A DNA stretch of 64,000 nt. Source: Yinghuangia seranimata (GTDB taxonomy: Bacteria > Actinomycetota > Actinomycetes > Streptomycetales > Streptomycetaceae). Within the stretch, counting starts at the first letter, position 1, and every line of letters begins with the position of its first letter. Positions 5,708 through 29,644 of the stretch are shown here, piece after piece. A model generated the notes under the pieces. That model worked only from the letters and a program-made list of their open reading frames with translations. It searched no databases and had not been told where the DNA came from. The position numbers and the translations under genes were made by a program. The stretch lies in NCBI RefSeq assembly GCF_029953285.1, contig NZ_JASAOI010000063.1, forward strand, positions 1-64,000, given 5' to 3'.

Positions 5708-5809
5708 GCGGACTCCAGGGTGTGGCGACCGGTCACGGGGGCACGGGAGGACGGGGGCGCGCGGGTCGCGGTGTGATGGTCGGACCGGAAATCGCGCCCC
5801 CACTCAGGG

Positions 5810-5838
5810 GGTATAGCAGCGGCGGCTGTTCCGTTCAC
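5810..5838 (-). promoter_or_regulatory. Possible promoter of the PurA-like gene
   Basis: On the minus strand TGAACG and TATACC (5815-5810) are separated by about 16 nt, about 100 bp before the GTG at 5707. This is a weak, by-eye prediction. Confidence 0.25.
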
Positions 5839-5850
5839 CGCGGGCGCCCA

Positions 5851-5881
5851 CAGGGCCGGTCGGATGATCCGACCGGCCCTG
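5851..5881 (-). terminator. Strong hairpin terminator after the VWA gene
   Basis: A perfect 15-bp stem with a single-nucleotide loop (arm CAGGGCCGGTCGGAT and its complement) lies 11 bp beyond the VWA gene stop. It separates the nrtR-like cassette from the PurA-like gene. Confidence 0.85.
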
Positions 5882-5891
5882 TGCTCAGGCA

Positions 5892-6896: not shown

Positions 6897-6955
6897 GGTG
6901 GTGGTCGTCCCTCCTCAGGGAATGTCGTGCTCGGGATGTCGTGCTCCGGGGACTG

Positions 6956-9238: not shown

Positions 9239-10213
9239 ATGTACACGTACCGGGACATGGACTCGTTCGGCGGTCTGCCCGTCGCCGCGCTGAACGACCT
9301 CCCCGACCCGAAGGGGACCCGGGCCGACAACGCCCACGCCCACAAGCCGCTGCCTGCCGCAGGCAAGGCCGCGTGGGCGCTGCGGATCCCGACGTACCAA
9401 GCCCCCGAGACCTTCCCCGAGCACTTCGCGCGCTTCCTCGCCACGGTCGACAGCACCAAGGTCAGCGCGCTGCTCATCGGCTCCTGGGGCGTGAACGACC
9501 TCAGCTCCAAGGTCGTGGTCGACCTGCTCGTCGAACACGCCGACAAGTTCCCCGCCTTGCGCCACCTGTACCTCGGCTACATCCACTACGAGGAGAACGA
9601 GCTCTCCTGGATCCAGCAGAGCGACGTCACGCCGCTGCTCACCGAGTTCCCGAAGCTGGAAACGCTCATCGTCAAGGGCGCGTACATCGAACTCTCCCCC
9701 GTCGAACACGACTCCCTGCGGACCCTCGAGTTCCAGACCGTCGGCCTCCCGGCCGACGTCGTGCAGGCCGTCGGCGCCTCGACGCTCCCGGCCCTCGAAT
9801 CCCTCGAACTGTGGCTCGGCGTCGAGGACTACGACGGCGACGCCACCGCCGAGGACCTCGCCGGCATCCTCAACGGCCGCGGCCTGCCCGCCCTCACCTC
9901 ACTGGGCCTGATGAACAGCGAGATCCAGGACGAGATCTGCGCCGCCGTCGCCTCCGCCCCGATCGTCGCCCGGCTGCGGCGGCTCGACCTGTCCATGGGC
10001 ACGCTGGGCAACCAGGGCGCCGAGGCGCTGCTCACCGGGCAGCCGCTCCAGCACCTCGAACAGCTTGTCCTGAGCCACCACTTCATGACCCAGAGCATGT
10101 GCGACCGACTCGCGGACGCCCTGCCCGACGTCGTCGTCGGCCTCGAGGACCTCGAGGAGGAGGACGACCTGGACGGCACCGAGGTGTGGCGCTACGTCGA
10201 GGTGTCCGAGTAA
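9239..10213 (+). CDS. STM4015-family LRR-like protein, paralogue 1
   Basis: This is a 324-residue member of the STM4015 family, named after a Salmonella locus tag; its function is undescribed to my knowledge. It starts with MDSFGGLPVAAL, then KVSALLIGSWG, LRHLYLGYI, TPLLTEFPKLETLIVKG, LESLELWLG, LTSLGLMNSEIQD, LRRLDLSMGTLGNQGAEALL and LSHHFM. The regularly spaced leucines give an irregular LRR-type solenoid of roughly 8-9 turns. The ATG at 9239 has GGAG upstream. It is first of six tandem paralogues that precede STM4014, STM4013, STM4012 and STM4011 homologues. There is no signal peptide, so it is likely cytoplasmic. Confidence 0.85.
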   Translation: MYTYRDMDSFGGLPVAALNDLPDPKGTRADNAHAHKPLPAAGKAAWALRIPTYQAPETFPEHFARFLATVDSTKVSALLIGSWGVNDLSSKVVVDLLVEHADKFPALRHLYLGYIHYEENELSWIQQSDVTPLLTEFPKLETLIVKGAYIELSPVEHDSLRTLEFQTVGLPADVVQAVGASTLPALESLELWLGVEDYDGDATAEDLAGILNGRGLPALTSLGLMNSEIQDEICAAVASAPIVARLRRLDLSMGTLGNQGAEALLTGQPLQHLEQLVLSHHFMTQSMCDRLADALPDVVVGLEDLEEEDDLDGTEVWRYVEVSE

Positions 10214-10267
10214 CCGCGCGCCCTCGCCACGTCGACCACCCCGCACGGAACCGAACCAGAGGACACC

Positions 10268-11320
10268 TTGCCGACCATCCCCTACACCCGCGGCCTGCTG
10301 GAGTCGTTCGGCGGCCTCCCCGTCGCGGCCTTCGCCCCGCACGGCGAGCCGCAGTACGACTGGTACATCGACCCGGCCGACGTGCGGCCGGAAACCGGCC
10401 TCCCGCCCGCCGACAAGGCCGCGTGGCGGCTGCGGACGCTCAACGACGACTACGCCACCGACCCTGAGGACTACCCGAGCCTGTACGCGCGGTTCGTCGA
10501 CACCGTCGACACCACCAAGGTCACCGCACTCGTCATCGGCGGATGGGGACCCAGCTACGAAGAGGCCTCGGCCGACGTCCCCCTCGGCCTGCTCACCGCC
10601 GACGCGCAGCGCTTCCCCGCGCTGCGACACCTCTTCGTCGGCGACATCAGCCAGGAGGAGGAAGAGGTGTCCTGGATCGTCCAGGACGACCTCACCCCGC
10701 TGCTCAACGCCTTCCCCGACCTGCACACCCTCGGTGTCAAGGGCGGCTCCCACCTCCGGCTCGACGCGATACGCCACGTCGGCCTGCGCGAACTGGTCTT
10801 CCACAGCGGCGGACTGCCCGGCCACGTCCTCGAAGCCGTCGGCGCGTGCGAACTCCCCGCGCTCACCCACCTGTACGCGATGCTCGGCCACCCCGAGTAC
10901 GGCGGCATCGACACCGTCGACCGGATCCGCGTCGGCGCCGGCCTGGGAGGGCAGGCCGGCACCGTGGACCAGCTCGCCGGGATCCTCTCCGGCGCCGGCC
11001 TGCCCGCGCTGACCCACCTCGCGCTGTGCGACAGCCTGGTCCAGGACGCCGTCGCCGCCACGGTCGCGGGCGCCCCTGTCGTCGCCCGGCTCGCCGAACT
11101 CGACCTGTCCATGGGCACCTTGGGCGACGAGGGCGCCGAAGCACTGCTCGCCGGACAGCCGCTCGGGCACCTCACGCGGCTCGACCTGCACCACCACTTC
11201 ATCGGCGACGCGCTCCAGGAACGGCTGCGGACGCTGTGCGCCGAAGCCGGCGTCGACCTGGACCTGTCCGACCACCAGACGGCCCGCGACTGGGGCCGCT
11301 ACGTCGCGGTCGCCGAGTAG
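10268..11320 (+). CDS. STM4015-family LRR-like protein, paralogue 2
   Basis: This 350-residue paralogue is the longest of the six. It shares SFGGLPVAAF, KVTALVIGGWG, LRHLFVGDI, EVSWIVQDDLTPLL, LAELDLSMGTLGDEGAEALL and LHHHFI with its neighbours. An extra segment (about residues 215-238, around DRIRVGAGLGGQAG) is absent from the other copies and sits in the solenoid before the DQLAGILSGAGLPALTHL turn. The TTG start at 10268 is preceded by GAGGA, so a TTG initiator is likely. It lies 54 bp after paralogue 1. Its role is unknown. Confidence 0.85.
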   Translation: MPTIPYTRGLLESFGGLPVAAFAPHGEPQYDWYIDPADVRPETGLPPADKAAWRLRTLNDDYATDPEDYPSLYARFVDTVDTTKVTALVIGGWGPSYEEASADVPLGLLTADAQRFPALRHLFVGDISQEEEEVSWIVQDDLTPLLNAFPDLHTLGVKGGSHLRLDAIRHVGLRELVFHSGGLPGHVLEAVGACELPALTHLYAMLGHPEYGGIDTVDRIRVGAGLGGQAGTVDQLAGILSGAGLPALTHLALCDSLVQDAVAATVAGAPVVARLAELDLSMGTLGDEGAEALLAGQPLGHLTRLDLHHHFIGDALQERLRTLCAEAGVDLDLSDHQTARDWGRYVAVAE

Positions 11321-11367
11321 CACGCCCGCCACCGACCAGCACCCGAACAGGAGCCCGGAACACCAGC

Positions 11368-12378
11368 ATGGGCATCTACCGATACCTCGAACACTTCGGC
11401 GGTCTGCCCGTCGCCGACCTGCGCCCGGCCGGCTCGAAGGCGGCCTCGCTGACGCCCGGCACGCACCCCGACGACACCCGCCACGGTGACGAACCCCGCT
11501 ACGGCATAGCCCCGGACGAGTACGCCCCCGACGCGGTCGCGTGGCGGGTGCGCTACCGGTACTGGGAGGACGCCCCCGACTGGGCCGACCACTTCCGGTA
11601 CTTCCTCGACACCGTCGACACCACCAAGGTCACCGCCCTCATCATCGGAGCCTGGAGCGAGGACCTGTCCGAGGACGAGGTCGTCATACCGTCGCTCGTC
11701 GAGGCCGCCGACCGGTTCCCCGCACTGCGCCACCTGTTCGTCGGCGAAGCGGTGCAGGAGGAGTCGGAGCTGACCTGGATCGAGTTCACCAGACCGCTCA
11801 ACGACGTCCTCGACGCGTTCCCGAACCTCACCGGACTCGGCGTGCGAGGCTTCGTCGACGTGAACCCCGGCCGGCACCCGAACCTGCGCCGCCTGACCAT
11901 GGAGGGCATGCTGACCGCCTCGATCGCCCGCGGCCTCGGCGCGTGCGAGTTCCCGCTCCTGGAAACCCTGGAACTGTGGCTCGGCGTCGCACACCACGGC
12001 GGCACGGCCACCCCCGAAGACCTCGCACAACTCCTCGAAGGCGCCCGCACACCGGCCTTGCGCCAGCTCGCCCTGCTCAACAGCGAGCGTCAGGACGACT
12101 TCGCCGCCGCACTCGCCGCCGCCCCCGTCGTCGCGGGCCTGAAGCGCCTCGACCTGTCCATGGGCACCTTCGGCGACGAAGGCGCGGAAGCCCTCCTCGG
12201 CGGCCAACCCCTCGGCCACCTCGAGGAGTTCGTGGTCAACCACCACTTCATGTCCGAGCCGATGACGGAACGGCTCCGGACAACCCTCGCCGACAGCGGC
12301 GTCGACGTCGTCCTCTCGGCCCCCGAGGAGCGCCGCGACTGGGGCGTCGACGGCCGCTACGTCGAGGTGGCCGAATAG
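11368..12378 (+). CDS. STM4015-family LRR-like protein, paralogue 3
   Basis: This 336-residue paralogue carries HFGGLPVADL, then a 40-residue variable stretch ending YGIAPDEYAPDAVAWR, then KVTALIIGAW, LRHLFVGEAVQEESELTWI, LETLELWLG, LRQLALLNSERQDD, LKRLDLSMGTFGDEGAEALL and VNHHFM. The YGIAPDEYAPDAVAW block and LLNSERQD are shared only with paralogue 4, suggesting these two are the most recent duplicates. The ATG at 11368 has GGAG upstream. It ends 1 bp before paralogue 4 begins. Confidence 0.85.
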   Translation: MGIYRYLEHFGGLPVADLRPAGSKAASLTPGTHPDDTRHGDEPRYGIAPDEYAPDAVAWRVRYRYWEDAPDWADHFRYFLDTVDTTKVTALIIGAWSEDLSEDEVVIPSLVEAADRFPALRHLFVGEAVQEESELTWIEFTRPLNDVLDAFPNLTGLGVRGFVDVNPGRHPNLRRLTMEGMLTASIARGLGACEFPLLETLELWLGVAHHGGTATPEDLAQLLEGARTPALRQLALLNSERQDDFAAALAAAPVVAGLKRLDLSMGTFGDEGAEALLGGQPLGHLEEFVVNHHFMSEPMTERLRTTLADSGVDVVLSAPEERRDWGVDGRYVEVAE

Positions 12379-12379
12379 C

Positions 12380-13396
12380 ATGGGCATCGGTGACTACGTC
12401 ACATCCTTCGGCGGTCTCCCGGTCGCCGACCTGCGGCCGCCCGATTCGGACGAACAGTCCGCCGCGCCGGGCAGCCAACCGACGAACAGCTACCTCGACA
12501 CCGATGCCCAGTACGGCATCGCCCCCGACGAGTACGCGCCCGACGCGGTCGCCTGGCGGCTGCGTTTCCGGCACTGGGACGCGGATCCCGAGTGGTCCGA
12601 CCACTTCGCCTACTTCCTGGACTCCGTGGACACCCGGCGGGTGACGTCCCTGGTGATCGGCGCATGGGACGAGGACCTTTCCGACGGCGGGCCTGTCATC
12701 CCCTCGCTGGTCGCCGCCGCCGACCGCCTGCCCGCGCTGCGGCACCTGTTCGTGGGCGACGTCATCTCCGAGGAGTCGGAGATCTCCTGGATCTCGTTCG
12801 ACGACCCGTTCACTCCGCTGCTCGACGCCTACCCGGCGTTGGAGACGTTCGCGTTCCGCGGCAGCCCGGGCTCGGATTTCCCGACGGCGCACCGGGGCCT
12901 GCGCACCCTGCGGTTCGAGTCCGGTGGCCTGCACGGCGGGATCGTCCGCTCAATCGGCGGCGCGGACCTGCCCGCGCTGGAAGACCTCGAACTGTGGCTG
13001 GGTACCGAGCGCTACTCCGGCGACACGACCGTCGGCGACCTGTCCGAGATCCTCTCCGGCGCCAGGCTGCCGTCTCTGCGCCGCCTCGCGCTGCTGAACA
13101 GCGAGCGGCAGGACGAGATCGCCGCCGCGATCGCGTCCGCGCCGGTCGTCGCCCAGCTGACGGAACTCGACCTGTCCATGGGGACGCTCGGCGACGACGG
13201 TGCGGAGGCACTGCTGAGCGGCCAGCCGCTCGGACACCTTGAGCGGCTCAGGATCCGTCACCACTTCCTGTCCCCCGGCGTGATCGAACGGCTGCGTACG
13301 ACGCTCGGGGCGCAAGGCGTTGCCGTCGACGTCTCCGAGCCCGAAATCCCGTACGACTGGGCTGACGACGGCCGATACGTCGAGGTTTCCGAGTGA
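12380..13396 (+). CDS. STM4015-family LRR-like protein, paralogue 4
   Basis: This 338-residue paralogue is closest to paralogue 3, sharing the YGIAPDEYAPDAVAWR block, LRHLFVGD and LLNSERQDE. The conserved blocks are LTELDLSMGTLGDDGAEALL and IRHHFL. It starts 1 bp after the stop of paralogue 3, with no own Shine-Dalgarno sequence resolvable outside that gene's 3' end, so reinitiation is likely. Unlike paralogue 3 it has SFDDPFTPLLDAYPALE in the central strand and a shorter block at the ESGGLHGGIVRS turn. Confidence 0.85.
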   Translation: MGIGDYVTSFGGLPVADLRPPDSDEQSAAPGSQPTNSYLDTDAQYGIAPDEYAPDAVAWRLRFRHWDADPEWSDHFAYFLDSVDTRRVTSLVIGAWDEDLSDGGPVIPSLVAAADRLPALRHLFVGDVISEESEISWISFDDPFTPLLDAYPALETFAFRGSPGSDFPTAHRGLRTLRFESGGLHGGIVRSIGGADLPALEDLELWLGTERYSGDTTVGDLSEILSGARLPSLRRLALLNSERQDEIAAAIASAPVVAQLTELDLSMGTLGDDGAEALLSGQPLGHLERLRIRHHFLSPGVIERLRTTLGAQGVAVDVSEPEIPYDWADDGRYVEVSE

Positions 13397-13454
13397 CGTC
13401 GCCGACCCGGAACACCGGGCTTCGAAACACCCAGCACCGAAAGGACGTCAGCCC

Positions 13455-14408
13455 ATGAGCGTCAACGAGCACGAGACGCACTTCGCCGGACTGCCCGTTG
13501 TCGAGGCGACGATGGACGACGAGCGCTCGATCCGCATACCGCAGGTCGCCGACCCCGGTGCCGTCGCTTGGCGGCTCCGGCTCGTCGAGGCGATCGAGTT
13601 CGCGGAGCCCGAGAGCGGCTTCGAGGAGTTGTTCCAGCACTTCCTGGACACCGTGGACACCACCCGCGTCCGCGCGCTGCTGATCGGCGACTGGGGCGTC
13701 ACCGACGCGGAGGAAGACCTCCCGTTCACCATGCTCCTGGGGGCCCGGGACCGGTTCCCGGCGCTGCGCGCGCTGTTCCTCGGCGACATCGTCCGCGAGG
13801 AGTCCGACGTCGCCTACATCCCGCAGGGCGACCTGGCCCCGCTGCTGGCGGCCTTCCCCGCCCTCGAGGAACTCGCCACCTGCGGGGGCGAGGGCCTGGC
13901 CTTCCCCGTCGGCGACTACCCGCACCTGCGCCGCCTGCGGCTGCAGAGCGGCGGCATGCCGGCCGAGGTGGTGCGCGCGGTCGGGGCGTCCACCTTCCCG
14001 GTGCTGGAGTACCTGGACGTCTGGCTGGGGGTCGACCGGTACGGCGGCGACACGACCACCGACGACCTCGCCGGCATCCTCAACGGCGCCGGCCTGCCGA
14101 GCCTGACGCACCTCGGCCTGATGGACAGCGAGATCCAGGACGCCGTCGCGGGCGCCGTCGCCGGTGCGCCGATCGTCGCGCGGCTGACCGAACTCGACCT
14201 GTCCATGGGCACCTTGGGCGACGAGGGCGTGGAGCAGCTGATCGCCGGTCAGCCCCTCACCCACCTGCGGCGGCTCGTCCTGAGCCACCACTTCGTCGGC
14301 GAGGGCGTGCAGAAGCGCCTGCGGGACGCGGTGCCGGACGTCGACGTGGACCTGTCCGACGCGCAGACGGAGCCGGACTGGGGACGGTACGTGGCGGTCT
14401 CCGAGTGA
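13455..14408 (+). CDS. STM4015-family LRR-like protein, paralogue 5
   Basis: At 317 residues this is the shortest paralogue, with an abbreviated N-terminus (HFAGLPVVEATMDDERS) and no YGIAPDEY block. Its solenoid is most like paralogue 1 (DDLAGILNGAGLPSLTHLGLMDSEIQD). The conserved LTELDLSMGTLGDEGVEQLI and LSHHFV are present. A 58-bp gap with AAGGA separates it from paralogue 4. Its stop overlaps the GTG start of paralogue 6. Confidence 0.85.
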   Translation: MSVNEHETHFAGLPVVEATMDDERSIRIPQVADPGAVAWRLRLVEAIEFAEPESGFEELFQHFLDTVDTTRVRALLIGDWGVTDAEEDLPFTMLLGARDRFPALRALFLGDIVREESDVAYIPQGDLAPLLAAFPALEELATCGGEGLAFPVGDYPHLRRLRLQSGGMPAEVVRAVGASTFPVLEYLDVWLGVDRYGGDTTTDDLAGILNGAGLPSLTHLGLMDSEIQDAVAGAVAGAPIVARLTELDLSMGTLGDEGVEQLIAGQPLTHLRRLVLSHHFVGEGVQKRLRDAVPDVDVDLSDAQTEPDWGRYVAVSE

Positions 14409-15382
14409 CACCTGTTCGGCATCTGACCGAGTTCGGCGGGCTGCCCGTCGTGCGTTTCGCGGACGATGGTCCCGAAGCCCACGACAGCACACCCGCCGGC
14501 TCGGTCGCCTGGAAGCTCGGGCTCGACGCGTGGTGGCGCGAGCGCGGCCCGGCGCGTACCCCCGCAGACGCGTTCCGCGAGCAGTTCGCACGGTTCGCGG
14601 ACACGGTGGACACGGCCGGCGTGACCGCGCTCGTGATCGGCGTGTGGGGTGAGCCGGGCGAGAGTTCCGGCACCGCCGTCGACTGCCTGGAGCGGTACGC
14701 CGACCGGTTCCCCGGGCTGCGCGCCGTGTTCCTCGGCGACGTCGTCCCCGACGAGTGCGAGATCTCGTGGCTCGACCAGGCCGCGTTCACGCTGGTGCTT
14801 CAGGCGTTCCCGCTGCTGGAGGAACTCGGGGTACGCGGGGGCGGCGGCTACCGTCCCGTGCCGCTGACCCACGAGCGGCTGCGGTGGCTGACGTTCGAGA
14901 GCGGGAACCTGTCCGGGCGCGTCGTCAGGTGTGTCGCGGAGTCGGCTTTCCCGGCCCTGGAGCACCTGGAAATCTGGTGCGGGGATGCAGATTACGGCGC
15001 CGACGTCGAGCCGGGCGACGTCGACCGGCTGGTCGACACCCTCGGGCGCGGGGCGCCGGACCTGGGCTCGCTCGGGCTGCGCAACTGCGGTTTCACCGAC
15101 CACGTGGCCGCCGTGCTGGCGGCGGCCCCGGTGACCGCGCGCCTGCACACCCTCGACCTGTCGCTCGGCACGCTCGGCGACGTCGGCGCGGAGGCACTGC
15201 TCGCCGGGCAGCCGCTCACCCGCCTGCGGCGTCTGGACCTGCACCACCACTACCTCAGCCGCGCCATGGCCCGGCGGGTCCTGGACACGCTGGTGCCCGC
15301 AGGGGTGTCCGTCGACGTCACCCAGGGCCGCCTGCGCGAGAACGCCGAGCGGTTCGAGCGGTACGTGGCGGTGGCCGAATGA
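14405..15382 (+). CDS. STM4015-family LRR-like protein, paralogue 6
   Basis: This 325-residue paralogue is the most divergent. The signature turn reads LDLSLGTLGDVGAEALL (Leu for Met) and the end motif is LHHHYL. The central part has EISWLDQAAFTLVLQAFPLLEELG. The GTG at 14405 overlaps the previous stop (GTGA), and its own stop overlaps the ATG of the STM4014-type gene (ATGA). Because it is directly coupled to the enzyme genes it may be the ancestral cluster copy, with the other five as expansions; this is inference. Confidence 0.85.
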   Translation: MTPVRHLTEFGGLPVVRFADDGPEAHDSTPAGSVAWKLGLDAWWRERGPARTPADAFREQFARFADTVDTAGVTALVIGVWGEPGESSGTAVDCLERYADRFPGLRAVFLGDVVPDECEISWLDQAAFTLVLQAFPLLEELGVRGGGGYRPVPLTHERLRWLTFESGNLSGRVVRCVAESAFPALEHLEIWCGDADYGADVEPGDVDRLVDTLGRGAPDLGSLGLRNCGFTDHVAAVLAAAPVTARLHTLDLSLGTLGDVGAEALLAGQPLTRLRRLDLHHHYLSRAMARRVLDTLVPAGVSVDVTQGRLRENAERFERYVAVAE

Positions 15383-16539
15383 GCGGCTACCCGGTCACGG
15401 AAACCGGAGTGACGGTCGTCGGCAACCCCGGCCACCGCCGCCTCGTCGGATTCGCCGCGGCAGCGCACGCCGCCGGACTGCCCGAACCGCGGGTCGTGCC
15501 CTGGCGGGACGTCCTGTCCGGCGCGCCGATCGCGTTCGCCGCGGGCCCGGTGCGTGTCGACTCGCCCGGCGAGGACCAGGACGTCCACGACCTCCTGTCC
15601 CGCGACGGGGCGCCGCGCGACGCCACGCGGGTCGAGGGCGGTGCCGTGCGGCACGCGGCCCTCCTGCGCGGGCTCCAGCGCATCCGTGACGCGGTCGACG
15701 GCACGCCCGGCGCCTGGCTCGTCAACGAACCCGACGACATAGCGGTGATGTTCGACAAGCCGCGGGCGAGCGCGCTGCTCGCCGAGGCCGGGGTGCCGGT
15801 GCCGCATGCGCTCACCGGGCCCGACACGAAGGTCGCTTCGTACGAGCACCTGCGCGAGCTCATGCGCGAGGAGAGGCGTCCGCGGGTGTTCATCAAGCCC
15901 GCGCACGGCTCGTCGGCGTCCGGCGTGGTCGCGCTGGAGACGAGCGGGTCGGGGCGGGTGCAAGCCACCACGTCGGCCGAACTCGTGCGTACCGCGGGCG
16001 GCGTCGAGCTGTTCAACGCGCTGCGGATCCGCAAGTACCGCGACGAGGCCGACGTCGCCGCCCTGATCGACGCCCTGTGCGCCGACCGCGTGCACGTCGA
16101 GTCGTGGCTGCCCAAACTCACCCTCGACGGGCACGCCGTGGACCTCCGCGTGCTGGTCGTCGCGGGGCGCGCGACGCACGTCGTGGCGCGCGCTTCGCGC
16201 TCCCCGATGACCAACCTGCACCTCGGCAACGCGCGCGCCGACGTGGGCGCCGTGCGCGCCGCCGTGGGCGATGAGGCGTGGGCGCGGGCAATGGCGTCGT
16301 GTGTCCGCGCCGCGGGGTGTTTTCCCCGTACGCTGCACGTCGGCGTCGACCTGCTGTTCGCGGTGGACCGGCGCCGCCACGCCGTCGGCGAGGTCAACGC
16401 GTTCGGCGACCTGCTCCCCGGCGTGCTGCACCACGGGCGGGACACCTGGGCGGAACAGGTCGACGCGCTGGTGCGAGGATGGCGCCCGCGACCGCCCGAG
16501 CGGCGGACCGCACCCCACGAGGACCGAGGTACTGCCTGA
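15379..16539 (+). CDS. STM4014-family ATP-grasp protein
   Basis: This 386-residue protein has an ATP-grasp layout: an N-terminal Rossmann-like subdomain (TGVTVVGNPGHRRLVGFAAA), then DKPRASALLAEAGVPVP (127-142), the lysine strand RVFIKPAHGSSASGV (Lys173), DLRVLVVAGRATHVVARAS and the metal-binding end GEVNAFGDLLPG. ATP-grasp enzymes ligate a carboxylate (via acyl-phosphate) to an amine or thiol. The order of the cluster (STM4015 copies, 4014, 4013, 4012, 4011) mirrors the naming order of these families. The substrate is unknown. It is translationally coupled to paralogue 6. Confidence 0.82.
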   Translation: MSGYPVTETGVTVVGNPGHRRLVGFAAAAHAAGLPEPRVVPWRDVLSGAPIAFAAGPVRVDSPGEDQDVHDLLSRDGAPRDATRVEGGAVRHAALLRGLQRIRDAVDGTPGAWLVNEPDDIAVMFDKPRASALLAEAGVPVPHALTGPDTKVASYEHLRELMREERRPRVFIKPAHGSSASGVVALETSGSGRVQATTSAELVRTAGGVELFNALRIRKYRDEADVAALIDALCADRVHVESWLPKLTLDGHAVDLRVLVVAGRATHVVARASRSPMTNLHLGNARADVGAVRAAVGDEAWARAMASCVRAAGCFPRTLHVGVDLLFAVDRRRHAVGEVNAFGDLLPGVLHHGRDTWAEQVDALVRGWRPRPPERRTAPHEDRGTA

Positions 16540-16540
16540 C

Positions 16541-17416
16541 ATGACGACACCCCTCCCGCCGGAGTACGGGGGCGGCGAAGCGGGCGCGGACCCGCAGGCG
16601 CCGGACATGAACGCCGTGGTCGGTCAGCACGACCTGCTCGTCGTCACGCTCGACACGCTGCGCTACGACGTCGCCGTCGAACTGGCCGGGGCCGGGCGGC
16701 TGCCGAACCTCGCACGCGTGCTGCCGGGCGGGCGCTGGGAGCAGCGGCACACGCCGGGCAGCTTCACGTTCGCGGCGCACACCGCGTTCCTGGCCGGGTT
16801 CCTGCCGACGCCGCTCGGGCCCGGGCCGCATCCGCGGCTGTTCGCGGCCCGGTTCGGCGGCAGCGAGTCAACGGCGGCGAACACGTGGGTGTTCGAGGAG
16901 GCCGACCTGCCGGCCGGGCTGGCGCGGGCCGGCTACCACACGGCGTGCATCGGCGGCGTCGGGTTCTTCAACAAGCAGGGCGCGCTCGGGTCGGTGCTGC
17001 CGGGCATGTTCGCCGAGAGTCACTGGGACCCCGAGCTGGGCGTGGCGTCGCCGATCTCGTTCGAGGCCCAGGTCGCCCGCGCGGAGCGGGTGGTCGGCGC
17101 GCTGGACGCCGACCAGCGGCTGTTCCTGCTGGTGAACGTGTCCGCGCTGCACCAGCCCAACTGGTTCCACATGCCGGGCGCCTCGTCCGCCGACGGCGAC
17201 TCGCGGGAGACCCACGCGGCCGCGCTCGAATACGTCGACCGGCACATCGGGCGGCTGTTCCGCGCGATGAGCAGCCGTCGGCCGTGCTTCACGATCGTGA
17301 CGTCCGACCACGGGACGGCGTACGGCGAGGACGGCTACACCGGGCACCGCATCGGGCACGAGGTCGTGTGGACGGTGCCGTACGCGCACTTCACCTTGAA
17401 CCCGGGCGAATGGTGA
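16541..17416 (+). CDS. STM4013/SEN3800-family hydrolase (alkaline phosphatase/sulfatase fold)
   Basis: This 291-residue protein shows the alkaline-phosphatase-superfamily metal ligands: LLVVTLDTLRYD (Asp38) near the N-terminus and IVTSDHGTAYGEDGYTGHRIGHE near the C-terminus. A GSFTFAAHTAFLAGFLP segment lies where the nucleophile Ser/Thr normally sits. It is shorter than true sulfatases (about 450+) and lacks the Cys/Ser-x-P-x-R formylglycine signature, so a phosphatase- or phosphotransferase-like activity is more likely. There is no signal peptide, so it should act in the cytoplasm. It begins 1 bp after the STM4014-type gene stop. A 127-bp gap precedes the inserted sigma-factor pair. Confidence 0.82.
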   Translation: MTTPLPPEYGGGEAGADPQAPDMNAVVGQHDLLVVTLDTLRYDVAVELAGAGRLPNLARVLPGGRWEQRHTPGSFTFAAHTAFLAGFLPTPLGPGPHPRLFAARFGGSESTAANTWVFEEADLPAGLARAGYHTACIGGVGFFNKQGALGSVLPGMFAESHWDPELGVASPISFEAQVARAERVVGALDADQRLFLLVNVSALHQPNWFHMPGASSADGDSRETHAAALEYVDRHIGRLFRAMSSRRPCFTIVTSDHGTAYGEDGYTGHRIGHEVVWTVPYAHFTLNPGEW

Positions 17417-17543
17417 TGTCTCGTCAGACCTGCTGACGCGGATCCGGGCCGGGTTCCGAACGAATCCGGATCCGCGCACAGCACATCGCCGCCTCGCCGC
17501 GTTCTCTCTTGCCGGAAGCTCCCGACGGGAGGAGAGGAAACGC

Positions 17544-18101
17544 GTGGAATTCGAGGAGTTCGCGGCAGCCCGATTGCCCGGGCTGCTGCGGTGCGCCTAC
17601 ATGCTGTGCGGGGACCGGGAACTCGCCCGCGACATCACGCAGGAGGTCCTGACCAGGGCCCTGGTGAAGTGGCGGCGGATATCCGGCTTGGCACACCCTG
17701 AGGCGTACGTCCGGACCATGGTGACGAACGAGTTCCTGTCGCTGCGGCGCAGGAAGGCCGTCGCCACGGTGGCGCTGACGTACGAGGCCCTGGACGGACC
17801 GGCCGCGCCGACGGCCGAGGACCCGGGGCACCAGGTCGGCCTGCGCGCCGACCTGTGGCAGCGGCTCGGGGCCCTGCCGCGGAAGCAGCGTGCGGTCGTC
17901 GTGCTGCGCTACTACGAGGGACTCACCGACAACGAGATCGCCGACGCGCTCGGCTGCCGGCCGTCGACGGTACGCGGCTACGCGGCGCGCGCGCTCGCGA
18001 CGCTGCGGGTGTCGATGACGGAGGAGTCGGGCCCTGCCCCGGACCGCGCCGCTCGGATTCCGGTTGCGACGCTGACCGCCCAGGACGGAGGCGCACGATG
18101 A
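17544..18101 (+). CDS. SigE-family (SigE70-type) RNA polymerase sigma factor
   Basis: This is a 185-residue ECF-type sigma factor. Region 2 lies at about 10-75 (LLRCAYMLCGDRELARDITQ and YVRTMVTNEFLSLRRRK) and region 4 at about 108-158 (LPRKQRAVVVLRYYEGLTDNEIADALGC, STVRGYAARAL), matching the actinobacterial SigE-family group. The GTG start at 17544 has a strong GGAGGAGAGG upstream. It overlaps the next membrane protein gene by 4 bp, as is usual for sigma/anti-sigma pairs. It sits inside the STM4011-STM4015 cluster, between the 4013 and 4012 homologues, with its own spacing on both sides. Whether it controls the cluster is unknown. Confidence 0.9.
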   Translation: MEFEEFAAARLPGLLRCAYMLCGDRELARDITQEVLTRALVKWRRISGLAHPEAYVRTMVTNEFLSLRRRKAVATVALTYEALDGPAAPTAEDPGHQVGLRADLWQRLGALPRKQRAVVVLRYYEGLTDNEIADALGCRPSTVRGYAARALATLRVSMTEESGPAPDRAARIPVATLTAQDGGAR

Positions 18102-19243
18102 CGAAGCAGTACGAAGCCGATGACCTGCGGAGGACGTTCGCCATGATGGAAGACAACGCGCCCGACGGTCTCGGCATGATCGAGGCAGCCCGCACCGCGG
18201 CGGTCGGCCGCAAGCGCCGCCGCCGGGCCATCGGCGCCGCCGGAGCCGCACTGGCGCTGGTGGCCGGGGCGACGACCGCCCTGGCGGTCACCAGCGGCGG
18301 GGGCGGCGGGGACGTGCGCCCCGCGGCGACCGCGGCGACCGCCCCCACCACCGCACCGGCCGCCCCTCTGTCCCTGACCGTGCCGGTGTCCTTCGCGCCG
18401 AGCAGCGGTCTCACGATGACGAACGCCATGTCCAACGGCCTCGACGCCCAGACCTGGTGGACGATGCACCTCCGCAGCAGCGGCACCGGCACCACGCCGA
18501 CCGACGTGGACCTGCGGCTGTCCCCCGACGGAACCGAAGCCAAGTACCGGTCCGAGGGCGGCACACCGGCCAAGGTCCACGACGCCGCCGCCTTCGTCAA
18601 CGTGGCGGGCGACTCGACCCCGGCAGCCGAGCGGCCCACGACCGTGGTGTGGCAGCTGCCGTCCGGGCTCTGGGCGGTGCTCATCGTCCGTGGCGGCAGC
18701 GCGACCACCAACGAAGCGCGCATCGCCGACGCGCTGCGGGTGGCGGAGGCACTGCGCGCCGACACACCCGTCGATGTGCCGCAGCCGGTCCGGTTGCCGT
18801 ATGTCCCCGCGGGCCTTGAGGTCAAGTACGGCGACATGGCGTCGTCGACGGGGAACCAGATCTGGCTGACCGACCCCGCGTTGCCGCTGGTCGACAACGG
18901 TGGGCACGGCGCACCCCAGACGCACCCCCTGCTTCTCATGGTGAACGTCGCCGACAAGCGGCCACCGTCCCAGCCCGTTGATCCCCGCTCCACGCCGCCT
19001 CCGGCGGGCACACCGGTCCGCATCGGCACGATGGACTTCCTGTACTGGGAGTCCGACCCGCAGGTGCCGGGCGGCACCTGGCAGCACCCGGCCAGGTTCG
19101 AAGGCACCGTCGGCTCGTGCTTCGTGTCGGTCGAGACGCTGGACCGTAACCGGGTGACCCGCGCCGATCTCGAAGAGGTGATTCGGCAGGCCCAGTTCAA
19201 GGACTGCAAGGACCAGTCCACCTGGGTTCCGCCGTTCAAGTAG
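18098..19243 (+). CDS. Putative anti-sigma-like single-pass membrane protein
   Basis: This 381-residue protein has a cytosolic N-terminus (about 1-43) with basic RKRRRR, one transmembrane segment (about 45-66, AIGAAGAALALVAGATTALAV), a Thr/Ala/Pro-rich linker, and a large extracytoplasmic C-terminal domain with two Cys near the end (GSCFVSV, FKDCKDQ) that could pair. It is coupled to the sigma gene by an ATGA overlap. The placement suggests the cognate anti-sigma or a signal sensor, but no zinc anti-sigma HxxxCxxC motif is visible, so this is inference. Confidence 0.65.
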   Translation: MTKQYEADDLRRTFAMMEDNAPDGLGMIEAARTAAVGRKRRRRAIGAAGAALALVAGATTALAVTSGGGGGDVRPAATAATAPTTAPAAPLSLTVPVSFAPSSGLTMTNAMSNGLDAQTWWTMHLRSSGTGTTPTDVDLRLSPDGTEAKYRSEGGTPAKVHDAAAFVNVAGDSTPAAERPTTVVWQLPSGLWAVLIVRGGSATTNEARIADALRVAEALRADTPVDVPQPVRLPYVPAGLEVKYGDMASSTGNQIWLTDPALPLVDNGGHGAPQTHPLLLMVNVADKRPPSQPVDPRSTPPPAGTPVRIGTMDFLYWESDPQVPGGTWQHPARFEGTVGSCFVSVETLDRNRVTRADLEEVIRQAQFKDCKDQSTWVPPFK

Positions 19244-19354
19244 GCCTCTGACACCCGGCACGGCGGCCGCCACCCCACCTGGCGGCCGCCGTGTCGGCGT
19301 TGCGGCATAGGGTCGGGGCGATCAACGACCGCAGAACCGCCGGAGGAACCGCCC

Positions 19355-20707
19355 ATGGGGTCGACCCGTACCGCCGATCCCGCCCTCGCGGACACGGGCT
19401 CGCGGTCGCCGTACGGCGGCTACGTGTACGCGTATCCGCACAAGACCGCATACCGGCCGTTCGAGGACCCGCCGGCGCTGCGGGACGTGTGGGCCGGGCA
19501 GGACCTCTCGTCGCTCTTCCTGTACTTCCACATCCCGTTCTGCGCGACGCGCTGCGGGTTCTGCAACCTCTTCCTCCGGACGGGCGCTCCGGAGGAGCTG
19601 GTGACCCGTTACCTGGACGCGCTGGAGCGGCAGGCGCGGGCGGTGCGCGAGGCGATACCCGGTGCGCGGTTCGCGACAGCCGCGGTCGGCGGCGGGACGC
19701 CGACGTACCTGAGCGCACCGGAGCTGGAGCGGCTGTTCGGGATCGCGACGGACGTGCTCGGCGTGGACCTGGCCGCGGTGCCGCTCGCCGTCGAGACCTC
19801 CCCGGGAACCGCCACCCCCGACCGGCTCGCGGTGCTCGCCGCGCACGGGACGACGCGTGTGAGCATCGGCGTCCAGTCGTTCGACGACGCCGAGGCGCAC
19901 GCCGCCGGGCGGCCGCAGAAGCGGGCCGAGGTGGAGGCGGCGCTCACGGCCATCCGGGACGCGGCGATCCCGTCGCTCAACATCGACCTGATCTACGGCA
20001 TCGACGGGCAGACCCCGGACAGCTGGCGGAGGTCGCTGGACGCCGCGCTGGCGTGGCGGCCCGAGGAGGTCTACCTCTACCCGCTGTACGTCCGCCCGTT
20101 GACCGGCCTCGGCCGCCGTGCCGTGACCCGCGCGGACTGGGACCGGGAGCGGCTGGCGCTGTACCGGATCGGCCGGGACCGGCTGCGGGAGGCGGGCTAC
20201 GAGCAGACGTCGATGCGTGGCTTCCGGCGCGCCGACGGGCCGCGGGACGCCGACACCGGGTACCGCTGCCAGCGGGACGGCATGATCGGCCTCGGCTGCG
20301 GGGCCCGCTCGTACACCGCGGACCTGCACTATTCGTTCGAGTACGCGGTCGGCATCAGCGAGGTGCGGGCGATCATCGACGAGTACGTGACGTTCGATCA
20401 GGAGGCGTTCTCGCGGGCCCGCGTGGGCATCCGGCTGGATGCCGGGGAGCAGCGGCGGCGGCATCTGCTGACCTCGCTGCTCCAGGCCGAGGGCCTGGAA
20501 GCCGCCGACTACCGGGGCCGGTTCGGCTCGGACGCGGCGGTCGACTTCGCGGCGGAGCTGGCGCCGCTGGCCGACGCGGGGTGGGTGGCCGTGGACGCCG
20601 ACCGGATCCGGCTCACCGAGGAGGGCCTGGCGTGGTCGGACGCGGTCGGCCCGGCGCTGTTCTCGGGGCGGGCCCAGGAACTCATGGACGGCTACGAACT
20701 CCGGTGA
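19355..20707 (+). CDS. STM4012-family radical SAM protein (HemN-like)
   Basis: This 450-residue protein has the radical SAM motif HIPFCATRCGFC (Cys63, Cys67, Cys70; CxxxCxxC) for a 4Fe-4S cluster, followed by GGGTPTYL, SIGVQSFDDAEAHAAGRPQ and NIDLIYGIDGQT, all in the order of coproporphyrinogen dehydrogenase-like (HemN/HemW) enzymes. A HemN_C-like domain occupies about 365-445. It belongs to the STM4012 branch, not to haem synthesis proper. GGAGGA precedes the ATG. It is coupled to the following STM4011 gene (GTGA overlap). The reaction is unknown. Confidence 0.87.
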   Translation: MGSTRTADPALADTGSRSPYGGYVYAYPHKTAYRPFEDPPALRDVWAGQDLSSLFLYFHIPFCATRCGFCNLFLRTGAPEELVTRYLDALERQARAVREAIPGARFATAAVGGGTPTYLSAPELERLFGIATDVLGVDLAAVPLAVETSPGTATPDRLAVLAAHGTTRVSIGVQSFDDAEAHAAGRPQKRAEVEAALTAIRDAAIPSLNIDLIYGIDGQTPDSWRRSLDAALAWRPEEVYLYPLYVRPLTGLGRRAVTRADWDRERLALYRIGRDRLREAGYEQTSMRGFRRADGPRDADTGYRCQRDGMIGLGCGARSYTADLHYSFEYAVGISEVRAIIDEYVTFDQEAFSRARVGIRLDAGEQRRRHLLTSLLQAEGLEAADYRGRFGSDAAVDFAAELAPLADAGWVAVDADRIRLTEEGLAWSDAVGPALFSGRAQELMDGYELR

Positions 20708-21585
20708 TTCCGCTGCCGTTTGCCGACGCTCCCCCGGCGTTGACGATCCTCTACCGGGGGCCGTTGGCGTCCTGCGACTACGACTGCGGGTACTGCCCGT
20801 TCGCCAAGCGGCGGGACTCCGCGGCGCAACTACGGGCGGACCGGGCGGCGTTGGAGCGCTTCGCGGCGTGGGTGGGAGACGCGCCGGAGCGGGTGTCGCT
20901 GCTGTTCACGCCGTGGGGCGAGGGCCTGGTGCGGTCGTGGTACCGGCGGACGCTGGCCGAGCTGAGCCATCTGCCGAACGTCGACCGGGTCGCGATCCAG
21001 ACCAACCTGAGCGCCCGCCCGGCGTGGACCGAAGCCGCGGACCTGTCGCGGCTCGCGCTGTGGGGGACGTACCACCCGGACCAGGTGCCGTACGACCGGT
21101 TCCTGGGCCGCTGCCGCGAACTGCACGCGCGCGGCGTGCGGTTCAGCGTCGGGGTCGTCGGGCTTCCGGAACACCTGGACGCGGCACGGCGGTTGCGCGG
21201 CGACCTGCCGGAGGGCGTCTACCTGTGGGTCAACGCGGCCGAGGGCCGCACCTACACGGACGCCGAGGCCGCCGACTGGACGGGGATCGACCCGCTGTTC
21301 GGCTACAGCCGGCATGCGCACCCGTCGCGCGGCGCGGCGTGCCGTACCGGCGAGACGGTGGTGAGCGTGGACGGCGACGGCGAGGTGCGGCGCTGCCACT
21401 TCGTGCCCGAGCGGATCGGGAACCTCTACGACGGCTCGTTCCGGGCCGCACTGGGGCCGCGGCCGTGCCCGAAGGAGCTGTGCGACTGCCACATCGGCTA
21501 TGTGCACCTCGAGGCGCTGCCGCTCTACGACGTGTTCGCCGGCGGGGTGCTCGAACGTGTCCCGAACCTACCGCCGTTCCGCTGA
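20704..21585 (+). CDS. STM4011-family radical SAM protein
   Basis: This 293-residue protein has CDYDCGYC (Cys24, Cys28, Cys31) near the N-terminus. The C-terminal part contributes further cysteines (ACRTGE, RRCHF, PCPKELCDC), resembling an auxiliary iron-sulfur cluster region like the SPASM/twitch domains of peptide-modifying radical SAM enzymes. A LFTPWGEGLVRSWYRRTL segment follows the cluster loop. The GTG start overlaps the STM4012 gene stop. Together with STM4012, STM4013 and STM4014 it forms the enzymatic half of the cluster. No substrate peptide could be identified. Confidence 0.85.
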   Translation: MIPLPFADAPPALTILYRGPLASCDYDCGYCPFAKRRDSAAQLRADRAALERFAAWVGDAPERVSLLFTPWGEGLVRSWYRRTLAELSHLPNVDRVAIQTNLSARPAWTEAADLSRLALWGTYHPDQVPYDRFLGRCRELHARGVRFSVGVVGLPEHLDAARRLRGDLPEGVYLWVNAAEGRTYTDAEAADWTGIDPLFGYSRHAHPSRGAACRTGETVVSVDGDGEVRRCHFVPERIGNLYDGSFRAALGPRPCPKELCDCHIGYVHLEALPLYDVFAGGVLERVPNLPPFR

Positions 21586-21666
21586 CCTGCGGCGGAGGCC
21601 CGCGCAGCGACACGCGTGATCTTCCCCGCAACGGATTTCCCTTGCGGGCAAGGGTGTTCGCATGGG

Positions 21667-21679
21667 TACATTCCGCCGG
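21667..21679 (+). promoter_or_regulatory. Possible promoter of a leaderless DUF1152 transcript
   Basis: TACATT (21667-21672) lies 7 bp before the GTG at 21679, and TTGCGG lies about 19 bp upstream of it. The spacing would start the transcript at or near the GTG itself, a leaderless mRNA, which is common in actinomycetes. No Shine-Dalgarno sequence is visible. Confidence 0.35.
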
Positions 21680-22650
21680 TGTTCTCCCTCTCCGAACCGC
21701 CTTTGTTCACCCGTCTGTCGTCGTGCGAACGCGTGCTGGTCGCGGGCGCCGGCGGCGGCTTCGACGTCTACGCGGGCCTGCCCCTCGCGCTCGCCCTGGA
21801 GGCGGCCGGCAAGCAGGTCCACCTCGCGAACCTGTCGTTCGTCGGCGTCGACCGGCTGCCGGCCCGCGACATGCTCCGGCCCGGCGTGGCGGCCGTCCTG
21901 CCGGAGACCGGCGGTCCCGGCGTGTACTTCCCCGAACGGTCCCTGGCCCGCTGGCGCGACGCCAACGGGGCGGCGTCGCCGGTGGTGTACGCGTTCCAGA
22001 TGACGGGCGTACGGCCGCTCGCGAGCATGTACCGGACGCTGTGCACGCTGCTGGAGCTGGACGCCATCGTGCTGGTCGACGGCGGCACGGACATCCTGAT
22101 GCGCGGTGACGAGTCGGGCCTGGGCACCCCGGGCGAGGACATGACCAGCCTCGCGGCGGTCGCCTCCCTGCCGCCGGACATGGCCCCGACCCGGCTGGTG
22201 GTGTCCCTCGGCTTCGGCATCGACGCGTACCACGGCGTGTGCCACACCCACGTGTTGGAGAACCTCGCGGCGCTGGAACGCGACGGCGGCTACCTCGGCG
22301 CGCTGTCCATCCCCCGCGACTCCCGCGAAGGCACTCTCTACCTCGACGCCGTCGCCCACGCCGAGCGGGAGACCGAGGCGCACCCGAGTATCGTCCACGG
22401 CTCCGTGGCGGCGGCGATCCGGGGCGAGTTCGGGAACGTGGCGCTGAGCGAGCGCACGCGGAACAGCGAGCTGTTCGTCAATCCGCTGATGGGCGTGTAC
22501 TTCACCGTCGAGCTCGACGCCCTGGCGCGCCGGAACCTCTACCTCGACCGGCTGCGCGACACGTACACACTGTGGGACGTGGTGGCGCGGATCGAGGGCT
22601 TCAGGGACGAGGTGCCGACCATCCGGCCGCAGAAGGCGTACCCGCACTGA
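21679..22650 (+). CDS. DUF1152 family protein
   Basis: This 323-residue protein carries the glycine-rich start VLVAGAGGGFDVYAGLPLALAL, typical of DUF1152, followed by HLANLSF, DAIVLVDGGTDILMRGDE and LGFGIDAYHGVCH. The Rossmann-like glycine loop suggests nucleotide or cofactor binding, but no activity is established. I chose GTG 21679, which fits the promoter spacing and places the glycine loop near residue 20. A longer GTG start at 21616 is possible. It lies 93 bp after STM4011 and may or may not belong to that cluster. Confidence 0.8.
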   Translation: MFSLSEPPLFTRLSSCERVLVAGAGGGFDVYAGLPLALALEAAGKQVHLANLSFVGVDRLPARDMLRPGVAAVLPETGGPGVYFPERSLARWRDANGAASPVVYAFQMTGVRPLASMYRTLCTLLELDAIVLVDGGTDILMRGDESGLGTPGEDMTSLAAVASLPPDMAPTRLVVSLGFGIDAYHGVCHTHVLENLAALERDGGYLGALSIPRDSREGTLYLDAVAHAERETEAHPSIVHGSVAAAIRGEFGNVALSERTRNSELFVNPLMGVYFTVELDALARRNLYLDRLRDTYTLWDVVARIEGFRDEVPTIRPQKAYPH

Positions 22651-28022: not shown

Positions 28023-29243
28023 TCAGGTCTCGCGGGAGGGGTGGTACTCCTCCTCGGTCAGGCCGAAGGTCCAGGCGACGCCGGCGCGGGCGGTGCGGGT
28101 GGTCGGGGGGACGCGCAGCCAGTAGGTGCGGACCGAACCGTCCGGCTCCGGCGTGGAGTTGAGGACCTCGACCATGACGACGGGCTCGTCGCCCGGCAGT
28201 TGGATGCGCCACAGGACGCCCGTCGCGTCGCGGTGCAGCGGCTGCGCGCCGACCTCGGACAGGTAGCGGTCGTACCCGTAGATCTCCAACATGACGCGCC
28301 GCAGTTCGGCGTTGTCCTCGTTGCGGATGCGCGTAGCGTCGAGGCTGCTGCCGCGCGGGCCGAGGCCGGTGACGAAGTCGGCCGGGATCGGCATGCCACG
28401 CCACGCGTGCAGCGCGAAGCCGTCGGGGAACGCGAGCGCGGCGCCCTCGCCGCTGTGCAGGCGGGCGTTCTCGTCGCGGTGCAGCTGCGTGGGCCGTTCG
28501 GCGACCAGCACGACACGCTCGTACGGCCACCACCAGCCGGCGGCGCGGGCCACCCGGCCGACCGCGTCCAGCGCGGGGGCGGCCGGGGAGTGCGCCAACT
28601 CCGGGAAGCAGCGCCGCAGTCCGTCGAAGGCCGCGAGCCAGGCGGCGTCGTGCTGGCCGCCCATCGCGTCCAGCGTCGCGGCGCGCGCCTCGACGGCGGC
28701 CTTCGTGGGCGCGGTGCGCTCCATGCCCGGGTTGCGCGGGCCACCGCCGCCACCGGTCGCGGCGGACACGGCGCCCTCGACGCCCTCGCGGATGCGCGCG
28801 GTCAGCCCGGTGGTCGGGGCCCACAGGCGTTCGGCGACCTCCTGCCACGCCTGGGCCCAGGTGGCCTGGCCGAGCGTCGCGGCGGCGTCGGTGCGGGCGC
28901 GTTCCCAGGTGGCGGCGCGCAGCCGGTCGCGCACGGGGGCGCCGGCGCGGGAGCCGGCCGGGGCACGCACGGGCAGCTTCATCGCGGCCAGCTCCTGCGG
29001 CTTGAACGCGCCGGACACCACGGTCGCGGCGACCGCGGCGGCCAACGGCGAGTCGTACCACAGGATCTTGTCCGGCTCGGCGAGCCCGGCGGCGCGGTAC
29101 GCGTCCCGGATCGCGGCCTCGGCGGCCGCCCGGTCGGCGGGCCCGGTCGCGGCGGCGACGGCGGCCCACGTGTCGGCGGTCTCGGAGAGGGCCGCGCGAT
29201 GGGCGAGCGTGAGCTCGGGGAAGGCGGCGGTGGCGGCGGTCAC
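28023..29243 (-). CDS. DUF6745 domain protein
   Basis: This 406-residue protein matches DUF6745 as I recall the family: a conserved block WWWPYERVVLVAERP, then LHRDENARLHSGEGAALAFPDGFALHAWRGMPIPADF, then RIRNEDNAELRRVMLEIYG. The N-terminal 200 residues are Ala/Arg-rich and helical. The GTG start at 29243 is preceded by GAGGAG. The 109-residue gene just upstream on the same strand (71 bp apart) is a likely partner. There is no signal or membrane segment. Function is unknown. Confidence 0.75.
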   Translation of the reverse strand: MTAATAAFPELTLAHRAALSETADTWAAVAAATGPADRAAAEAAIRDAYRAAGLAEPDKILWYDSPLAAAVAATVVSGAFKPQELAAMKLPVRAPAGSRAGAPVRDRLRAATWERARTDAAATLGQATWAQAWQEVAERLWAPTTGLTARIREGVEGAVSAATGGGGGPRNPGMERTAPTKAAVEARAATLDAMGGQHDAAWLAAFDGLRRCFPELAHSPAAPALDAVGRVARAAGWWWPYERVVLVAERPTQLHRDENARLHSGEGAALAFPDGFALHAWRGMPIPADFVTGLGPRGSSLDATRIRNEDNAELRRVMLEIYGYDRYLSEVGAQPLHRDATGVLWRIQLPGDEPVVMVEVLNSTPEPDGSVRTYWLRVPPTTRTARAGVAWTFGLTEEEYHPSRET

Positions 29244-29314: not shown

Positions 29315-29644
29315 TCAGTCCGCGACGATCCGGACCGCGCCCGGCACGTACTCGCGCTGCCGGACCACCCGGTACCAGCCCTTCGGCAGCGAGATCGCGG
29401 CGTGCTCCTCGTGCACCAGGCGGGTGGGCGCGTCCAGCTTGAGGTGCCCGATCACCGTCGGCTCCGGGTCGAGGAACAGCGTGCCCGCGCCGACCACCGC
29501 GTGCGCGTGGCCGGTCACCTCGCCGAGCGCCAGCACCAGCCGCCCGCGCCCGTCGCGCGGCTTGGCCGGCAGCGCGGTGACGCCCTGCGGCACCGCCGTC
29601 TCGTCGACGGGCAGGATCAGAATGTCGCCCTGACGGTACATCAA
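29315..29644 (-). CDS. Conserved small protein upstream of DUF6745
   Basis: This 109-residue soluble protein begins MYRQGDILILPV and has a central LVLALGEVTGHAHAVVG and an end EEHAAISLPKGWYRVVRQREY, compatible with an all-beta (barrel-like) domain. Two adjacent ATG codons begin the frame, so 29644 or 29641 is the start. It precedes the DUF6745 gene on the same strand and is probably co-transcribed. I do not recognise a function. Confidence 0.65.
   Translation of the reverse strand: MMYRQGDILILPVDETAVPQGVTALPAKPRDGRGRLVLALGEVTGHAHAVVGAGTLFLDPEPTVIGHLKLDAPTRLVHEEHAAISLPKGWYRVVRQREYVPGAVRIVAD

Follow-up and report, generated by a model that had tools for sequence, protein, structure and literature searches.

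An STM4011-STM4015 gene cluster with six STM4015 paralogues in Yinghuangia seranimata, and a conserved C-terminal tail as a putative target of its enzymes

The cluster and its genes

The DNA analyzed here, which we call the window, is a stretch of 64,000 nucleotides (nt) from the actinomycete Yinghuangia seranimata, and all coordinates are positions within it. The genome to which it belongs, of 9.8 Mb, is designated G000, and two other genomes of its genus are designated G001 and G002. Positions 9239 to 21585 of the plus strand hold twelve genes, ten of which score over the curated bit-score cut-offs of the NCBIfam models for the STM4011 to STM4015 families (NF038076, 275 bits; NF038074, 175; NF038075, 250; NF006067, 380; NF038073, 200). 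An original prediction, made from the letters of the sequence, had located all five families correctly and had also named the enzyme types correctly: two radical S-adenosylmethionine (SAM) enzymes, an ATP-grasp enzyme, and an alkaline-phosphatase-fold hydrolase. STM4015 is a leucine-rich repeat (LRR) protein, and the window has six copies of its gene, a to f (Table 1).

Table 1. Genes of the cluster and of its downstream companions (aa, amino acids; AF2, AlphaFold2; pLDDT, predicted local distance difference test)
Gene or product	Coordinates	Strand	Evidence
STM4015 copy a, LRR protein, 324 aa, tail WRYVEVSE	9239..10213	+	NF038076 346 bits; AF2 model, best PDB match 2RA8
STM4015 copy b, 350 aa, TTG start inferred, tail GRYVAVAE	10268..11320	+	NF038076 321 bits
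STM4015 copy c, 336 aa, tail GRYVEVAE	11368..12378	+	NF038076 287 bits
STM4015 copy d, 338 aa, tail GRYVEVSE	12380..13396	+	NF038076 325 bits
STM4015 copy e, 317 aa, tail GRYVAVSE	13455..14408	+	NF038076 325 bits
STM4015 copy f, 325 aa, tail ERYVAVAE	14405..15382	+	NF038076 304 bits
STM4014, predicted RimK/LysX/graspetide-like ATP-grasp ligase, 386 aa	15379..16539	+	NF038074 421 bits; Foldseek of model, pLDDT 73.8
STM4013, alkaline-phosphatase/sulfatase-fold hydrolase, 291 aa	16541..17416	+	NF038075 411 bits; Pfam Sulfatase 42 bits
SigE-family extracytoplasmic function (ECF) sigma factor, inserted in cluster	17544..18101	+	TIGR02983 146 bits, over cut-off
Probable sigma-factor partner protein	18098..19243	+	4-bp overlap with sigma gene; CU044_5270 match far below cut-off
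STM4012, HemN-like radical SAM enzyme, 450 aa	19355..20707	+	NF006067 618 bits; PDB relatives 1OLT, 9P2U
STM4011, radical SAM enzyme, extra C-terminal cysteines, 293 aa	20704..21585	+	NF038073 401 bits
DUF6745 protein, 406 aa, GTG start inferred, cluster companion	28023..29243	-	PF20530 333 bits; association
108-aa protein, GEVTGHAH and HEEH motifs, usual DUF6745 neighbor	29315..29641	-	Homologues adjoin DUF6745

The window has all five families of the STM4011-STM4015 cluster (NF038073 to NF038076 and NF006067) in the same order and over cut-offs; it differs from the usual cluster in its six STM4015 copies, in the insertion of a sigma factor gene with its partner, and in having a DUF6745 gene nearby. 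The order 4015-4014-4013-4012-4011 on one strand is shared by 22 of the 23 clusters that we mapped, as judged by frame ends, the exception being the Bacteroides cluster, which has STM4015, STM4014, and STM4011 only. Adjacent genes overlap by 4 bp at copies e/f, copy f/STM4014, and STM4012/STM4011, and are spaced by 1 bp at copies c/d and STM4014/STM4013. The sigma/partner pair splits the core between STM4013 and STM4012, with flanking gaps of 127 and 111 bp; the original prediction of an ordered core on one strand holds for order and strand but had overlooked this pair. The pair is also present in the G001 cluster (with a weak partner match, 61 bits) and was not found in the map of the G002 cluster. 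The window's partner protein had no Pfam match at E 0.01. Scans for promoters and terminators gave nothing exceeding shuffled sequences.

The five families are widespread: STM4014 and STM4015 occur in Actinomycetota, Deinococcota, Pseudomonadota, Bacillota, and Bacteroidota. As the original prediction had stated, the families have no described function that we could find: in the portions of the open-licence literature that our searches returned, the family names were met only in lines of tables. The 2009 work of Iyer and others on amidoligases may reportedly have noted these ATP-grasp genes, and we claim no priority for the gene neighborhood.

STM4015 copy number and ancestry

We counted STM4015 matches (E 0.001) in 394 Streptomycetaceae genomes, scoring at most five candidates per genome and including partial matches. 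A match was present in 186 genomes, and 184 had at least one over the cut-off. Single matches were found in 101 genomes, two in 71, three in 6, four in 1, and five or more in 7. Thus, 172 of the 186 positive genomes have one or two matches, and six copies are exceptional, not the rule, which upholds the earlier claim that they are unusual. In a sample of the phylum, 6 of 396 genomes were positive. All STM4015 candidates were fully scored in 17 genomes, giving (matches/over cut-off) 7/7 for G000, 8/7 for G001, and 5/3 for G002. Outside the genus, four copies were over the cut-off in G775, G629, and G596 and two in G423 and G414. These high counts outside the genus shrink on full scoring; the copies of G775 are scattered over four contigs, and those of G596 are two identical pairs on two contigs. 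The seventh STM4015 gene of the window's genome lies on another contig (G000:C49). Among the 23 mapped enzyme clusters, 20 contain one or two STM4015 genes, and only those of the genus contain more (six in the window, five in G001, and three, one of them partial, in G002).

The six window copies are 42 to 59% identical in pairwise comparisons. In a tree built by a quick method from 56 chosen rows, copy a falls with a lone gene from G001 and the first copy of Embleya, copy b with an array gene from G002, and copy e with one from G001; copies c and d are sisters within a group that holds other array copies and the second Embleya copies, and copy f is without a close partner. A recent tandem burst was rejected because of the low identity and because the copies have separate relatives in the genus and in Embleya. 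The local diversification proposed originally therefore stands as to the copies having diversified but not as to a recent local event; judging from the tree, the array is an old, reshuffled paralogue family whose diversification is shared with relatives.

A constant C-terminal tail in STM4015

All six window copies end in RYV[AE]V[SA]E, and this conserved, exactly C-terminal STM4015 tail is a new observation; the open-licence literature, judged largely by title and abstract, yielded no treatment of the STM4011-STM4015 system in connection with tail chemistry. We surveyed 133 distinct STM4015 proteins, each at least 250 aa long and ending in a stop codon (shorter or unstopped frames were dropped, and the sample leans to high-scoring matches) with the strict pattern R[YFW][VTIA]x[VAL][SAGT]E$. 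The pattern matched 106 of the 109 proteins from Streptomycetaceae genomes with STM4014, in which R-[YF]-V-x-V-[SAG]-E is the typical form, 3 of the 8 from Streptomycetaceae genomes without STM4014, and 8 of the 16 from other taxa (other actinomycetes, Deinococcus, Methylobacterium, Paenibacillus, Salmonella, Bacteroides, and Calothrix). The terminal Glu was present in 106 of 109, 5 of 8, and 16 of 16, respectively. Among the proteins from enzyme-bearing genomes, the three that deviate are encoded by lone genes, and the tail is kept in 7 of 10 mapped lone STM4015 genes of such genomes.

Among the window copies, identity is 83% over the last seven residues, 34% over the preceding 25 gap-free columns, and 49% over all gap-free columns; 9 of 292 seven-column stretches score above the tail. 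Within the tail codons, third positions vary more (64% identity) than first and second positions (91%), so the identity of the tail is not just a product of recent copying. The 21 residues before the tail are rich in Asp and Glu (36%, versus 16% in the body). The AF2 model of copy a, made with 13 sequences, has an LRR fold and a mean pLDDT of 86.9, with values above 90 over most of the LRR part and of 56 and 45 at the end. Its best PDB match, which is also a relative by sequence, is 2RA8 from Bacteroides fragilis (Q64V53, deposited as uncharacterized), a solved structure matching the LRR part of STM4015. The 2RA8 chain has about 80 more N-terminal residues, a region in which a relative from Bacteroides finegoldii carries a WGR domain.

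In Streptomyces, a lone STM4015 clade (L090, L093, and L119) has GPLTY at its C terminus in place of the tail described above. A Calothrix plasmid (L107, 2014-3288) encodes an STM4015 protein with the terminal Glu, and the stretch compared had no match to the window's enzymes.

The enzymes

STM4014 scored over the cut-off in 176 of the 394 Streptomycetaceae genomes, all of them STM4015 positive (lists compared by eye), and was absent over the cut-off in 8 of the 184 STM4015 genomes; none of these eight has STM4012 over its cut-off. A structure model of STM4014 from 4 sequences (pLDDT 73.8) was compared with the PDB by Foldseek. The graspetide ligase PsnB with its precursor peptide took ranks 1 to 11, ArgX with LysW rank 12, RimK rank 15, LysX/ArgX with LysW-gamma-AAA rank 18, and RimK with RpsF rank 20. 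The predicted fold class of STM4014 thus resembles RimK/LysX/graspetide-type ATP-grasp ligases. It scores far below the cut-off of the RimK family (24.7 bits against the rimK_fam model, whose cut-off is 143.4). Read by eye, the protein lacks the GSWGR motif and has KPAHGSSASG at the glycine loop. Single-sequence searches of the PDB with STM4014 and STM4011 gave no match at E 0.1.

By sequence, STM4012 is nearest in the PDB to HemN (1OLT) and the methyltransferase NocN (9P2U). In STM4011, C24, C28, C31, and C213 are invariant in 23 aligned rows, and C231, C255, C260, and C262 are conserved in at least 90% of them. In STM4013, D38, T76, D256, and H257 are conserved in at least 90% of 22 aligned rows. 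Formylglycine sulfatases carry a Cys/Ser motif. STM4013 has FTFAAH at that site, and anaerobic sulfatase maturation, with STM4011 activating STM4013, is therefore unlikely.

In Bacteroides finegoldii, STM4011 is fused to a Cof-type haloacid dehalogenase hydrolase, which in Salmonella is encoded by a gene of its own that overlaps STM4011. In B. finegoldii (L109, 8755-9120), STM4013 and STM4012 are remnants, and STM4015, STM4014, and STM4011 are kept. Two entries labeled as phages (OR845521.1 and OR850900.1) contain pieces of the Salmonella-type cluster that may be host DNA.

A proposed function for the cluster

Where a constant peptide with a terminal Glu sits exactly at the C terminus and occurs with a RimK/LysX/graspetide-fold ligase, modification of this end is the best explanation. 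We tentatively propose, giving it a little less than an even chance, that STM4015 is a ribosomally made substrate or carrier, putatively modified at its C terminus by one shared set of enzymes. Each STM4015 protein would consist of a folded LRR domain, an acidic and probably flexible linker, and the constant peptide R-[YF]-V-x-V-[SAG]-E-COOH. STM4014 would use ATP to activate a carboxylate of the C-terminal Glu and join an amine to it, in the manner of RimK on ribosomal protein S6 and of LysX/ArgX on LysW; STM4011 and STM4012 would act by radical chemistry on the tail or on the attached group; and STM4013 would remove or transfer a group of the phosphoryl or sulfo type. LRR domains with differing surfaces would then all bear this one modified tail, the six paralogues serving as six targets or addresses for one modification. 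The gene content, the conservation and position of the tail, its low pLDDT, the fold class of the STM4014 model, and the co-occurrence of the genes are observed; that the tail is exposed and modified, that Glu is the site, and the order of the steps we infer. In a bolder form, which we think rather doubtful, the ATP-grasp and radical SAM enzymes would turn the tail into a fixed reactive group or cofactor that diversified LRRs deliver to different partners, a new kind of protein-tethered chemistry.

In the carrier LysW, the substrate is borne by the C-terminal Glu, which belongs to an EDWGE motif (PMC10433800). LysW is the closest working model for STM4015: both have a C-terminal Glu after acidic residues and an ATP-grasp ligase of similar predicted fold. 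The STM4015 system has, however, an LRR fold and radical SAM enzymes, and it falls outside the LysW/LysX carrier system, since the GSWGR motif is missing from the ligase and no Cys to bind zinc is among the columns with at least 85% conservation in 113 STM4015 proteins. RimK acts on ribosomal protein S6. It is an ATP-grasp ligase acting at a protein C terminus (PMC4431377), as is proposed here for STM4014, and the RimK-RpsF structure is among the STM4014 matches; the present system differs in its dedicated LRR protein family, its multienzyme cluster, and an STM4014 score far below the rimK_fam cut-off. With graspetides (PsnA/PsnB) and other radical SAM ribosomally synthesized and posttranslationally modified peptides (RiPPs), the system shares a ligase model nearest PsnB, radical SAM enzymes, and a short peptide as the proposed target. 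But STM4015 is a folded protein of 317 to 350 aa, not a short precursor, and its constant tail and variable body are the reverse of a leader and core, so that both its size and the part that varies place it outside the RiPPs.

Several points weigh against modification of the tail. Among the six window copies, other LRR segments are equally conserved. The tail varies among phyla (YMNAMYTE, WYYPMITE, and WRYPSLTE), with only the Glu and a small residue before it near constant, and the strict pattern was defined after tails had been inspected. The conserved C terminus could instead be a docking or degradation signal, and no release enzyme was identified. Loss of the tail with loss of the enzymes is suggestive only: the Fisher test of tail against STM4014 presence gave P = 1.7e-5 but ignores phylogeny, and the five pattern failures among the eight enzyme-less genomes fall into few lineages, leaving few independent pairs. 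In five phylogeny-independent pairs, one or two favored tail loss with enzyme loss, none the opposite, and three or four showed no difference (sign test, P = 0.5), so the Fisher value is not to be taken at face value. Besides the three enzyme-less genomes that retain the strict tail, a fourth (RYTAVDE) is off by one residue. The STM4014 model is only of moderate quality, query template modeling scores were 0.41 to 0.53 among the best 50 matches, and small-molecule ligases and inositol kinases also match it (DcsG, rank 14; PPIP5K2, rank 19; Ddl, rank 23).

The matches to small-molecule ligases, the enzyme content, and the six diversified LRR proteins would also suit the reading of the original prediction, in which a small molecule or peptide is tailored in free form and the STM4015 copies serve as its recognition part or receptors. 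We judge this improbable. In the seven annotated five-family clusters, the families have no other annotated gene between them and hence no evident separate precursor (small open reading frames lacking annotation were not searched), and recognition leaves the constant C-terminal Glu unexplained. Recognition in a small-molecule pathway is probably not the only role of STM4015, which the conserved tail at its very C terminus marks as a likely carrier or substrate of the enzymes. Having a defined C-terminal target, the proposed modification is directly testable by mass spectrometry of one protein; if it occurs, modification on an LRR scaffold would put radical SAM and ATP-grasp enzymes to a new use.

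DUF6745 and other neighbors

The system is larger than five families, the DUF6745 gene being a frequent companion. In the window this gene, missed by the original prediction, starts 6.4 kb downstream of the cluster. Among 48 genomes picked from lists, not at random, PF20530 was over the cut-off in 17 of 20 enzyme-bearing genomes, in none of 20 STM4015-less genomes (one match fell below the cut-off), and in one of the eight that have only STM4015. For G414 and G435, two of the 17, DUF6745 and the best listed STM4015 matches lie on different contigs. DUF6745 occurs in the flanks of 15 of the 23 mapped clusters, accompanied in 14 by a homologue of the 108-aa gene (not found in G001); one cluster, at a contig edge, has only the 108-aa gene, and 7 have neither, wider flanks having been covered for three clusters only. 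DUF6745 is not exclusive to STM4015 genomes. In the phylum sample, PF20530 was over the cut-off in 10 of 396 genomes, including 4 of the 6 STM4015 genomes; the other six DUF6745 genomes, without an STM4015 match, scored 47 to 261 bits, versus 335 to 390 in STM4015 genomes. The window's 108-aa protein had no Pfam match at E 0.01. In the portions of the open-licence literature returned, DUF6745, 2RA8, Q64V53, and SEN3800 were not mentioned, and PRK08208 appeared once, in a method paper.

These proteins bear on an adaptor role for STM4015, in which the tail docks noncovalently on an enzyme and the real substrate, either DUF6745 or some other protein, is brought in by the LRR part. Docking is a common role of conserved motifs at C termini. 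DUF6745 is present with the enzymes in 17 of the 20 chosen genomes above, looks LRR-like in Deinococcus (by eye, with weak below-cut-off matches to LRR effector models), and in 15 distinct copies ends in a YxPxxx[EQ][TA]-like motif. Nevertheless, we think such an adaptor unlikely: the terminal Glu of all 16 distant-taxon proteins fits carboxylate chemistry better than docking, several structural neighbors of STM4014 act on such carboxylates, and DUF6745 was not found in the compared stretches of the Salmonella, Paenibacillus, and Bacteroides clusters. Modification of the STM4015 tail remains our preferred reading.

Upstream of the cluster, on the minus strand (4235-8988), are genes for an NrtR-like NUDIX regulator, a kinase-like protein, an unassigned 334-aa protein, and an adenylosuccinate-synthetase-like protein; the set is present in all three genomes of the genus and, among the mapped clusters, stands beside the cluster only in the genus. 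The kinase-like protein has weak PADLOC similarity to MkoA and PD-T4-6, and the lone copy on G000:C49 is near an AbiEii-like frame. Together with the diversity of the LRRs, these would fit an immune-type or anti-phage role, with the LRR proteins as sensors of targets, which we nonetheless regard as very improbable. The upstream genes adjoin the cluster only in the genus, and of the 7 of 12 cluster genes tested in PADLOC (two STM4015 copies, STM4014, STM4013, the partner, STM4012, and STM4011), only STM4012 gave a match, at 26.9 bits.

Downstream of STM4011 lies a DUF1152 gene (21616-22650); in G002 (L089, 8753-9847), a DUF1152 frame adjoins a lone, tail-less STM4015.

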